Positions 13,610 through 16,090 of a stretch of 64,000 nt of DNA are shown piece by piece. The stretch spans positions 124,001 through 188,000 of the forward strand of contig NZ_WJBU01000002.1 in NCBI RefSeq assembly GCF_009646335.1. Direction: 5' to 3'. A program made the position numbers and the translations under genes. The first letter of the stretch is position 1. The number at the start of each line of letters is the position of its first letter. The stretch comes from Caenimonas koreensis DSM 17982 (GTDB taxonomy: Bacteria; Pseudomonadota; Gammaproteobacteria; Burkholderiales; Burkholderiaceae_C). The notes under the pieces are model-generated. The model searched no databases and was not told where the DNA came from. It saw only the letters and a program-made list of their open reading frames with translations.

Positions 13610-14650
13610 ATGAATTTCCTCTGGCCCCAAAACCTCTGGCTGCTCGTAGCGTTGCCACTGCTGGTGCTGCTGTACCTGTGGCTGATGAAGCGCAAGCGCA
13701 AGACAGCGTTGCGTTACGCGTCGCTCTCCATCGTCAAGGAAGCGATGGGCGCGAGCCAGTCGTTCAAGCGGCACATTCCGCCGCTGCTCTTCCTGCTTGC
13801 CATTGCAGCCATGCTGCTGGCAGCCGCGCGCCCCGTAGCGGTGGTCACGTTGCCGTCGAACCAGCAGACGATCATTCTGGCGATGGATGTGTCGGGCAGC
13901 ATGCGTGCCACGGACGTGCAGCCCAACCGGCTTGTTGCTGCGCAGAACGCGGCCAAGGCCTTCATTGCTGAACTGCCCCGCCATGTGAAGGTGGGCATCG
14001 TTGCGTTTGCCGGGTCCGCGCAGGTGGCGCAATTGCCAACCGTCAATCGCGAAGATCTCGTGACTGCGATTGACCGGTTCCAGCTGCAGCGCGCCACGGC
14101 AACGGGCAACGCCATCGTGATCTCGCTCGCGACGCTGTTCCCCGATGCGGGGATTGACCTTCAGTCGATGCAGGGCGGGCGTGACCGGCAGCGCGGTTTC
14201 TCGCTCGACGCCGAGAAGAAGGAAAAGAAGGAGTTCACGCCCGTGGCGCCCGGCTCGTACACGTCTGCCGCGATCATCATGTTGACTGACGGCCAGCGCA
14301 CCACAGGTGTCGACCCGCTCGAAGCGGCCAAGATTGCCGCTGAGCGCGGTGTGCGTGTGTACACCGTCGGCATTGGCACGGTGGATGGCGAGACCATCGG
14401 TTTCGAGGGTTGGTCGATGCGGGTGCGACTCGATGAGGAAACGCTCAAGGCCATTGCGCAAAAGACGTCTGCCGAGTACTACTACGCGGGGACTGCGGGT
14501 GACTTGAAGAAGGTCTACGAAACTTTGAGTTCGCGGCTGACGGTGGAGAAGAAGGAGACTGAGGTGTCGGCCTTGCTGGCGATGGCGGCTGCTGTGCTGG
14601 CGCTGCTGTCTGCGGGGTTGTCGCTGCTTTGGTTTAACCGGATTCTTTGA
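13610..14650 (+). CDS. VWA domain membrane protein, BatA type
   Basis: 346 aa. Two N-terminal membrane segments (about 8-26 and 57-74) are followed by a periplasmic von Willebrand A domain with the MIDAS motif DVSGS (93-97), a downstream threonine and the MLTDGQ segment. A final membrane helix lies at about 317-340. This is the BatA arrangement of the aerotolerance-type operon. A BatB, BatD or DUF4381 gene would normally be expected beside it, but none follows: the next 747 bp hold only repeat elements. Function is probably protein complex handling in the envelope, powered by MoxR. Confidence 0.9.
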   Translation: MNFLWPQNLWLLVALPLLVLLYLWLMKRKRKTALRYASLSIVKEAMGASQSFKRHIPPLLFLLAIAAMLLAAARPVAVVTLPSNQQTIILAMDVSGSMRATDVQPNRLVAAQNAAKAFIAELPRHVKVGIVAFAGSAQVAQLPTVNREDLVTAIDRFQLQRATATGNAIVISLATLFPDAGIDLQSMQGGRDRQRGFSLDAEKKEKKEFTPVAPGSYTSAAIIMLTDGQRTTGVDPLEAAKIAAERGVRVYTVGIGTVDGETIGFEGWSMRVRLDEETLKAIAQKTSAEYYYAGTAGDLKKVYETLSSRLTVEKKETEVSALLAMAAAVLALLSAGLSLLWFNRIL

Positions 14651-14692
14651 GGGCGCTTGCTTGTTCAGGGCGCTTGTTTGTTCGGGGCGCTC
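14651..14692 (+). repeat. Short direct repeats flanking hairpin element A
   Basis: Right after the VWA stop codon, GGGCGCTTGCTTGTTCA is followed by GGGCGCTTGTTTGTTCG and then a partial GGGCGCT, giving a 17-bp tandem repeat. A degenerate inverted set (units ending GAGCGCCCC) lies beyond element B at about 15355-15390. So the inverted symmetry of this gap extends past the two 245-bp elements. Confidence 0.6.
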
Positions 14693-14933
14693 GCGGCAGG
14701 TGGACTCTGGCGGGGCCTCATGCTTTTGTGGTTTGCGCTAGTCGCGCAAACGTCGCTTCAAGAATTGCCTCGAAGCCGGCGCAAAAGAACTCCCTGCGAG
14801 TTTGCAAGCAAACTCTCCGGTCAAACAGCTTTTGCGAGCTAGATGACGTGTCGCGCTAAAGCGCGATCCGGCTTCGAGCCAATTCTTGAAGCCACAAAAG
14901 AAATCGGCCCCACCAGAGTCCACCTGCCGCGAG
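14690..14933. repeat. Multi-hairpin palindromic element, copy A
   Basis: A 244-bp element bounded by a perfect 21-bp terminal inverted repeat beginning CTCGCGGCAGGTGGACTC. Inside, a 25-bp arm (14755-14779) pairs with 14868-14892 with a single mismatch. These arms enclose an 88-nt core (14780-14867) holding smaller hairpins: TCGCGC/GCGCGA, GAGTTTGC/GCAAACTC and CGCAAAAG/CTTTTGCG. A further GTTTGCGC/GCGCAAAC hairpin lies outside the arms. No ORF inside is credible. It sits in the gap between two convergent genes. Copy B is inverted relative to this one. Confidence 0.85.
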
Positions 14934-15094
14934 TTCACCAACTGGGGGTGGTGACAAAGTCTCGGCTCGCTTCGCATTGCCTGGAATGAGGCGCTGTGCG
15001 CTAGAGCGAGATGGTGTTTGCGGCCAATTGTTGGGCGCAGTAGCGGGCAAAACACGCAGCGGTCGGTATCTCGTTGATCAACCACCGCTGTTGG
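14934..15094. other. Spacer between the two palindromic elements
   Basis: 161 bp with no gene. Its ends resemble each other in inverted orientation: CCAACTGGGGGTGGTGA near 14938-14954 and TCAACCACCGCTGTTGG at 15078-15094. The inverted duplication therefore reaches into the spacer. Nothing else is recognisable. Confidence 0.5.
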
Positions 15095-15339
15095 CTCGTG
15101 GCAGGCGGACTCTGGCGCGGCCGACTTTTGTGAGCGGCTTTGAAATTTGTCTTCAGGCCGGATCGCGCTTTAGCGCGACTCAATGACTAGCTCGCAAAAG
15201 CTGTTTGACCGGAGAGTTTGCTTGCAAACTCGCAGGGAGTTCTTTTGCGCCGGCTTGAAGACAAATTTCAAAGCGAAGTTTGCGCGACAAGCGCAAACCG
15301 TCACAGCAGGAGGCCGCGCCAGAGTCCACCTGCCGCGAG
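15095..15339. repeat. Multi-hairpin palindromic element, copy B (inverted)
   Basis: 245 bp, same plan as copy A but inverted. Arms 15137-15161 and 15250-15274 pair over 25 bp with one G-T wobble. The 88-nt core (15162-15249) is almost identical to copy A read on the other strand. The arms differ from those of copy A at eight of 25 positions, and at six of these both arms changed so that pairing is kept. The outer GTTTGCGC/GCGCAAAC hairpin and terminal repeats, here slightly imperfect on the left, are also present. No protein is predicted. Confidence 0.85.
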
Positions 15340-15397
15340 CTGCCCTGACCAGACAGAGCGCCCCGGAACAAAGAGAGCGCCCCGAACAACAAACAGC

Positions 15398-16090
15398 CTA
15401 CTCAAACAACCCGCTGTTCAACCGCAACACCCGGTCACACCGCGCAGCCAGCAAACTGTCATGCGTGACCAGGATGAACGCGGTGCCCCTGTCACGGGCA
15501 AGCCGCAACATCATCTCGAACACGACATCAGCCGTGCTTCGATCGAGATTGCCAGTGGGCTCGTCGGCCATCACGCAGGCCGGGTCCGTCACCAGCGCAC
15601 GCGCAATCGCGACGCGTTGACGCTCGCCACCCGACAACTCCGCCGGGCGATGCCTCACTCGCTCGGTGAGCCCGACCGACGCCAACGTCTTCGTCGCAGC
15701 CTCGATACATTGCTCGGGCGAATCACGACGGATGCGCAGCGGCATGCCAACGTTGTCGAGCGCGCTGAACTCCGGCAGCAAATGATGGAACTGGTACACA
15801 AAGCCCAGGTGCTTGTTGCGCAAGCGCCCCTGCGCCGCTGCATCGAGCTTGCTGAACTGCTGGCCCATCAACTCGACACTGCCGCTCGTCGGCGCATCAA
15901 GGCCGCCGAGCAAATGCAGCAGCGTGCTCTTGCCGGAACCTGAAGCGCCAACAATCGCCACGGTTTCACCCCGGCGCACCTCGAGGTCGATGCCCTTGAG
16001 CACCTCGACATCGAGCCCGCCTTCGGAAAAGCGCTTGGTGATACCGGTGCATTTGAGGACGATATCGCCGCGCGTGGTGACGCTATTCAT
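15398..16090 (-). CDS. lolD: Lipoprotein-releasing ABC transporter ATPase LolD
   Basis: 230-aa ABC ATPase of the Lol/MacB class. It has Walker [10 protein letters not shown] (48-56), the QFHHLLPEF segment characteristic of LolD, the signature [15 protein letters not shown], and Walker B with ADEPTGNLD. LolD powers release of lipoproteins from the inner membrane to LolA. The gene overlaps the end of the lolC-type permease by 8 bp, so the two are translated together. It ends against the palindromic element gap, converging with the Bat-type cluster. Confidence 0.95.

Follow-up and report, generated by a model that had tools for sequence, protein, structure and literature searches.

In the stretch of DNA analyzed here, 64,000 nucleotides from Caenimonas koreensis DSM 17982 (the window), one intergenic region holds a complete dimeric element (14690..15339), in which two multi-hairpin halves face each other across a spacer. 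The fold of these halves is conserved via compensatory changes, the element is a heterodimer that is copied as a whole, and throughout the family the tolerated mismatches and the loops of DNA type fall on one strand of each half, the one running from the spacer outward. We judge it somewhat better than an even bet that this dispersed chromosomal heterodimer of about 650 bp is a non-autonomous mobile element, the units of which are recognized as one-strand folded single-stranded DNA (ssDNA) by a putative trans-acting enzyme. No description of the element was found in the open-licence literature, where the best matches were viewed and to which subscription papers mostly do not belong, and this widespread repeat family is apparently unnamed so far.

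The window element and its predicted fold

The element lies between the end of a batA-type gene at 14650 and a lolD-type gene on the minus strand (15398-16090; gene names assigned by eye). It is composed of half A (14690..14933, 244 bp), a spacer of 161 bp (14934..15094), and the inverted half A' (15095..15339, 245 bp); the dimer recurs as a unit elsewhere in the genome, and its order is common to relatives. The strand that folds (here called the F strand) would be the minus strand for half A and the plus strand for half A', in both cases leading from the spacer outward, as judged from the mismatch and loop biases described below; apart from the halves and the short repeats outside them, features are given without a strand. 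The ends of the spacer are kept among this genome's copies and its middle is variable (by eye). More short inverted repeats, TGTTCRGGGCGCTC, are found beyond the ends of the element. Two short terminal-type repeats, TGTTCRGGGCGCTY, stand on the plus strand at the outer edge of half A (14662-14675 and 14679-14692), and the same repeat is inverted, on the minus strand, outside half A' (15375..15388). The window's list of open reading frames includes frames within the repeats, and such frames may be annotated as spurious genes.

Each half has a multi-branched predicted fold, in which the outer stem (about 28 bp) is followed by a side hairpin, by the 25-bp arms, and by a core with two hairpins. 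In half A, the 28-bp terminal repeat that forms one strand of the outer stem (14690..14717) has its partner at 14906-14933, the side hairpin P5 is predicted at 14731..14751, and the 5' and 3' covarying arms, delimited by letter-by-letter comparison, are located at 14755..14779 and 14868..14892. Between the arms lies the 88-nt core (14780..14867), in which fold and alignment place helix P2, hairpin P3 (14788-14827) with its conserved flanks AACTCNCTGCG and CTCCGNTCAAACA, and hairpin P4 (14851-14866). In half A', the 28-bp terminal repeat (15312..15339) is partnered with 15095-15122, the arms delimited in the same way occupy 15137..15161 and 15250..15274, and the 88-nt core, placed by fold and core comparison, occupies 15162..15249. 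Folding as ssDNA gave z values of -12.9 for half A and -12.0 for half A', which none of 200 dinucleotide shuffles matched. On the favored strand, the apical loops of the window's halves are CTTG, TTTA, and five-base loops, with no GNA triloop among them.

A sequence-only reading of the window had described two inverted 245-bp copies of a nested palindrome at 14690-14933 and 15095-15339. Both copies are real and their coordinates are right, but the unit is larger and comprises the two copies together with the 161-bp spacer. The same reading counted eight differences between the arms of the two copies, six of them compensated, and a letter-by-letter recount confirmed this: at eight paired positions the arms differ, and at six of these both sides changed with pairing kept in both copies. 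The remaining two positions are C.C in copy 1 versus T-A in copy 2 and A-T in copy 1 versus A.C in copy 2, with 24 of 25 positions paired in each copy. The cores, which had been called nearly identical, indeed differ at only 6 of 88 positions, all of them between core positions 64 and 70, where the predicted folds have little or no pairing and which lie outside the main helices. The proposal that the folded form matters is supported, with covariation far above that of shuffles and slid controls.

Copies of the dimer in the window's genome and in relatives

The window's own assembly (4.6 Mb in 43 contigs) yielded 17 half-element matches when searched with half A, and seven dimers, the window's included, are intact at about 650 bp. 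Damaged copies comprise a dimer on contig C43 that is split by an insert, a dimer on C42 in which half A is collapsed, and a solo terminal repeat, also on C42; the model search added a more divergent dimer on C39 plus two further weak single matches. The 1.9-kb insert on C43 carries the reverse transcriptase gene of a group II intron (domains RVT_1 and GIIM), and the intron (L055 4830-6209, G000:C43) interrupts half A' of that dimer. Dimers with one collapsed half were seen at L351 (G003) and at L061 (G000:C42), which suggests hairpin decay by deletion between paired arms. The own-genome copies examined run from half A through the spacer to the inverted half A', and immediately beyond their ends stand TGTTCRGGGCGCTC or near variants of it.

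The facing arrangement is general. Across 80 collection loci, 46 of 53 neighboring model matches are oriented plus then minus (1 of the 46 being the opposite-strand shadow of a single half), and in 40 of the 46 facing pairs the inner gap measures 103 to 371 nt. When halves were compared over 43 dimers from 46 chosen loci, a set that includes three weak-match mis-pairings (L272, L274, and L275) and the intron-split L055, 76 halves could be compared within their own genome, and 74 of these had their nearest match in a different dimer and not in their own partner; the two exceptions are both halves of L280. Over the modeled part, identity to a half of another dimer is mostly 0.8-0.99, versus mostly 0.6-0.8 to the half's own partner. 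A recent local duplication, in which a half should be nearest its own partner, is rejected on these counts.

Seven near-alike copies in one relative (G019) align with sharp edges and unrelated flanks. Filled and empty versions of one site were found between rnpB and the next gene, where G035 carries a full dimer and G003 a truncated copy and where the flanks are joined over 615-684 bp, with no model match, in nine genomes (G040, G043, G024, G000, G042, G050, G031, G026, and G041). In G019 this site holds other genes and no model match, and in G005 and G002 the flanks seem to be joined, as judged by the match table. Matches to the rnpB site came from 57 genomes, and the sites read were the nine joined ones and those of G035, G003, and G019; in the remaining genomes, the flanks are far apart, lie on different contigs, or are matched on one side. 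Neither the seven aligned copies nor the rnpB site showed a clear target-site duplication. For the site that the window's element occupies, the match table gives a gap of 16 to 223 bp with no model match in seven genomes (G054, G035, G057, G042, G050, G017, and G014), and the gap of G027 contains a model match. The batA-lolD gap of G050 (L305) holds a palindrome of the Y1 type, which is described below, in place of the element. Enrichment of motifs at the foot of the halves is weak, with CGCCAC on the inner side and CGCGAG on the outer side of 16 of 87 halves each, against shuffle maxima of 9 and 11, respectively, and no foot motif is put forward as a guide sequence.

According to a simple-script gene caller, five of the ten own-genome copies lie between convergent genes, five between tandem genes, and none between divergent genes. 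Elsewhere, the 20 dimers with a called gene on both sides divide into 6 convergent, 12 tandem, and 2 divergent, and the 149 predicted gaps in those loci divide into 30, 95, and 24, respectively. A role as a transcription terminator was rejected, as these orientation counts are without strong bias.

The covariance model built from 17 aligned halves covers 139 positions with 45 pairs and has matches in 45 of 60 genomes of the window's genus and none in the other 15; the richest of the genus genomes searched has 79 matches, at least three of which are opposite-strand shadows. The exact core pattern occurs in at least 114 stretches of the named genome collection. Among the matches listed are Acidovorax, Comamonas, Rubrivivax, Hydrogenophaga, Aquabacterium, Pseudacidovorax, Xenophilus, Herminiimonas, and others, and every genus named in a title among these matches is one that we take to belong to Burkholderiales. 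In an even draw of the order (150 genomes, 92 genera), the model search found a match in 8 genomes and 7 genera, the window's own assembly included, and, as far as such searches can tell, the element is patchy or diverged outside its main family. Weak model matches to single halves in genomes of other families (G062, G102, G161, and G090), which have near-equal lengths within G062, G102, and G090, suggest diverged relatives beyond the main family.

Some copies depart from the window's architecture. Those of Acidovorax (L120, L138, L161, L171, and L175) have extra outer hairpins such as CTTTCTTTTGCTTCGCCAAAAGAAAG, which bring the full element to about 700 bp, and their outer end, TGTTSAGGGCG, is similar by eye to that of the window's genus. 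In Comamonas suwonensis, two dimers stand side by side (L165 3036-4245).

The exact core pattern had no match in viral contigs, a window half had none in phage records and none in plasmid records, and an Acidovorax dimer used as the query matched 2 of 72,556 plasmid records. A phage or plasmid origin is rejected, since mobile replicons are nearly devoid of the element, which is essentially chromosomal in the collections searched.

Conservation of the fold and the strand likely to carry it

Covariation was assessed in two alignments, one of 17 seeds aligned with plain MAFFT and one of 133 matches from the 80 collection loci that were fitted to the covariance model. Double compensatory changes occur at 33 of 45 pairs in the 17 seeds, with 94.5% of cells paired, and at all 45 pairs in the 133 sequences, with 90.3% of cells paired, the latter counts leaning towards the model to which that alignment was fitted. 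In neither alignment did any of 500 shuffles reach the observed paired cells, double-change pairs or cells, or covariation score, and the signal was lost when partners were slid; for further pair types, 102 of 500 shuffles attained the observed count in the seeds, compared with none of 500 in the 133 sequences. At three outer pairs, which begin at columns 6, 9, and 13, most of the 133 rows show no pairing. In the inner helices 92-100% of cells are paired, and in the arms 86%. The core is almost invariant in sequence, with AACTCNCTGCG and CTCCGNTCAAACA around the core hairpin among the most conserved in the 17-seed alignment. The sequence-only reading had proposed a search for further copies and for significant covariation and had named a recent local duplication as a competing account; the copies exist in the window's genome and in its relatives, the covariation far exceeds that of the controls, and the duplication does not explain the two halves.

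The strand that folds was judged from the mismatches that the arms tolerate; were the two strands of equal importance, G.T and A.C should turn up in the arms with the same frequency. Isolated arm mismatches with at least three flanking pairs were scored on the model strand in 162 sequences (the 133 matches and 29 seeds), which clustering at 80% reduced to 76 clusters; 23 of these are A.C-rich and 1 is G.T-rich (P = 3e-6). The split is 26 to 3 when two flanking pairs are required and 17 to 1 when four are required, and a looser count gives 47 to 9 clusters. In a free alignment of the arms, the model strand has 75 G.U and 203 A.C. The model-fitted alignment, counted raw, points in the opposite direction, with 143 G.U versus 86 A.C, 76 of these 143 G.U coming from one outermost, poorly aligned pair. 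An A.C on the model strand is a G.U or G.T on the reverse strand, and the excess of pyrimidine-pyrimidine mismatches becomes one of G.A and G.G there. In helix P2, mismatches are too few for a strand call.

The apical loops point to the same strand. Three hairpins were scored wherever core and stem were recognizable (P3 in 70, P4 in 84, and P5 in 66 of 100 clusters), and of the resulting 220 loops 123 are triloops; here, as in the mismatch count, the clusters share ancestry, so that independent events are fewer than the counts. G-N-A makes up 79 of the 123 triloops on the reverse, favored strand and 3 on the model strand, and GNRA or UNCG accounts for 4 of 64 tetraloops on the reverse strand, where the commonest tetraloop is CTTG. 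GNRA and UNCG tetraloops are typical of RNA, and an excess of GNA triloops is the reverse of the RNA habit. According to the accessible part of one source (PMC4686876), which cites Yoshizawa 1997, DNA mini-hairpins are extraordinarily stable when their loop is GNA or GNNA and two or more G-C pairs are present. We prefer folded ssDNA to RNA, since GNA triloops are a signature of DNA hairpins. The argument applies at the level of the family, since the window's own halves are without GNA triloops, and because of these loops we rate the ssDNA reading slightly lower and an RNA reading slightly higher. Of the options that the sequence-only reading had left side by side, a structured RNA, a cruciform, or a mobile element, the last is favored, and a symmetric cruciform is argued against by the fact that one strand shows both the tolerated mismatches and the DNA-type loops.

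It is conceivable that each half is instead a structured RNA, namely, one that acts within 3' untranslated regions or a small RNA that runs outward from the spacer, with one oriented copy for each convergent transcript. Such an RNA would account for the strong covariation and the conserved unpaired letters, for isolated mismatches that are G.U on one strand, and for the own-genome copies being placed between convergent genes in 5 of 10 cases and never between divergent ones, and a CTTG loop fits RNA as well. However, no U-run follows the window's halves, and the predominance of GNA triloops over GNRA and UNCG tetraloops runs against this idea. A search of the window with Rfam 15 gave no match at gathering scores, and a lax search gave three chance-level matches far below them; a known structured RNA family was rejected on this basis. 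Overall, we consider an RNA function unlikely.

Two further accounts bear on the same data. In an ordinary MITE, a DDE transposase would read the terminal repeats as duplex DNA and the inner hairpins would be passive. While the 28-bp terminal repeats and the sharp boundaries among copies are in line with this, we hold it to be quite improbable: it is the inner helices that are paired more consistently than the arms, the core is nearly invariant, duplex recognition gives no reason for a strand asymmetry, and no target-site duplication was seen. Alternatively, the arms could be complementary without selection if template switching during replication perfects imperfect palindromes. Double changes are common and one-sided standard pairs are rare at most pairs, as such a process allows, but the conserved unpaired letters, the strand bias of the mismatches, and the GNA loops are left unexplained. 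We find this very hard to believe as the source of the complementarity, and template switching may help to perfect the arms.

If the halves are recognized as folded ssDNA, as we favor, the preferred strand would be exposed, for example, at replication forks, would fold, and would then be cut by a putative nuclease or transposase that acts on ssDNA of that strand. With its halves inverted, the dimer presents exactly one favorably oriented half on each of its two DNA strands, as REPINs do, and the unlikeness of halves and arms would keep each half folding on itself and not into one giant palindrome with its partner. The family gives a clear signal that DNA, and not RNA, may be selected to fold on a single strand, and it raises the testable questions of which enzymes act on folded ssDNA where the repeats are not REPs and why the folded dimers are heterodimers.

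Candidate enzymes, cargo, and likeness to known systems

A Y1 match is present in 58 of 60 genomes of the genus, with one match in 54 and two in 4, and a resident transposase of the TIRYT type might mobilize the element; related enzymes act strand specifically on folded ssDNA, as stated in the available text of one report (PMC8266576). However, at the 14 loci that were read, one per genome in 14 genomes, the Y1 gene of about 230 amino acids is bordered by a palindrome of its own, AATTGGGGTCAGATTCCAATT or a slight variant, in all 14 and on both sides in 11, and the gene that follows is common to 13 of the 14. Moreover, the Y1 gene occurs also in element-free genomes, the single Y1 match of the window's own genome is not flanked by the element, and a filters-off model search of 15 Y1 loci (in 14 of the 58 genomes that have a Y1 match) reached at best 18 bits, at an odd second gene of G005. 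We therefore regard mobilization by this enzyme as a poor prospect. A linked RAYT or TnpA-like transposase, which had been suggested from the sequence, was not found in the Y1 loci and pair interiors that were read; linkage to a RAYT or TIRYT gene was rejected for the 15 Y1 loci searched. By its features, the Y1 gene of the genus looks like the TIRYT kind as far as the consulted portion of PMC6006769 describes it. At the Y1 locus of the window's genome (G000:C38:205086-205415) and its relatives (L223-L237), the neighborhood is shared and the palindrome fits the TIRYT consensus GGGG[AT][CG]A[CG] given in that portion (PMC6006769). The palindrome AATTGGGGTCAGATTCCAATT is also found inside the spacer of one element (L064).

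The interiors of ten facing pairs held no cognate enzyme, an IS110-type gene (L308) and that of the group II intron at L055 being the only transposase-type or reverse-transcriptase genes, both of which are likely insertions into dimers. At L308 (1057-2313, G019:C92), the IS110/IS116-type transposase gene lies between two dimer halves. The wide pairs inspected were L067, L106, L107, L147, L149, L280, L121, L174, and L308, with L169 (gap, 4122) left out. Genes between facing halves encode MAPEG and HicA-type proteins (L106, G019), a HEPN_RiboL-PSP protein (L107, G052), a DUF1963 protein (L147, a Comamonadaceae isolate), and, as judged by eye, a small membrane-type protein (L149, a Hydrogenophaga MAG) and a secreted-looking protein (L067, G019); they may be captured cargo or later insertions. 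An autonomous version with a transposase between its halves was rejected, as the wide pairs held cargo, the IS110-type insertion, and the intron and no cognate enzyme. L067 and L106 share about 110 bp of extra sequence inside the facing halves with a promoter-like TATAGT, and in L067 this sequence is inverted at both ends.

The cargo genes keep open, without proving it, a bolder reading, which we put forward tentatively and think rather doubtful. The family would then be a new class of single-strand mobile DNA, a cousin of REPINs and integron sites, with giant folded ends that face each other and have DNA-specific GNA loops, recognized on one strand by a putative enzyme, capable of carrying cargo, and established across Burkholderiales.

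Several known repeats invite comparison. ERIC, NEMIS/Correia, and MITE-like repeats are multicopy, intergenic, palindromic, and geneless, and they are single palindromes of about 100-160 bp. Our element is likewise multicopy, intergenic, and palindromic, with no gene inside, but it consists of two multi-hairpin units, forms a conserved heterodimer, and shows covariation across genera. In integron attC sites, structure is conserved over sequence, one folded strand is the substrate, and the repeats are in direct orientation. The element resembles them in its conserved structure, its one folded strand, and the cassette-like genes (HicA, MAPEG, HEPN, and DUF1963) in a few wide pairs, whereas its halves face each other and do not run head to tail, the comparison being one of structure, orientation, and cargo.

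Closer still are systems built around Y1 enzymes. TIRYT genes have long terminal inverted repeats that are not REPs, as far as the accessible text goes (PMC6006769), and a Y1 gene is present here too, but the repeat at this gene is AATTGGGGTCAGATTCCAATT, which is unrelated to the element. With REPINs and BIMEs, the element shares an inverted doublet as the replicating unit, an extragenic location, and a predicted fold as ssDNA or mRNA, as these are described in the part of PMC3116915 that was available. It differs in its unit, which is multi-branched and about 245 bp long, versus a short palindromic hairpin of 20-40 bp in REPs (PMC3733652, in part); in its numbers, at most some tens of dimers in one genome, versus usually more than 100 copies of REPs (PMC2817692, in part); and in that no transposase gene was flanked by the element in the loci read and no constant GTAG or CGTC tag marks the foot of its hairpin. 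Within 10 nt of the foot in 79 halves, the anchoring of which is approximate, the F strand has GTAG 2 times and CGTC 4 times on the inner side, and the other strand has CGTC 11 times on the outer and once on the inner side and GTAG 2 and 3 times, respectively; the counts of CGTC on the other strand exceed our rough expectation for chance. For its size, for want of a constant REP tag, and for want of a linked RAYT or transposase, the element is not classed as a REPIN. Still, a single REP unit is recognized strand specifically on ssDNA (PMC8266576, from the available text), and a preference for heterodimers has been noted among REPs, without explanation in the text at hand (PMC3733652). In the element, the bias of mismatches and loops to one strand bears on such processing indirectly. 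By analogy, the element may work like a giant REPIN.
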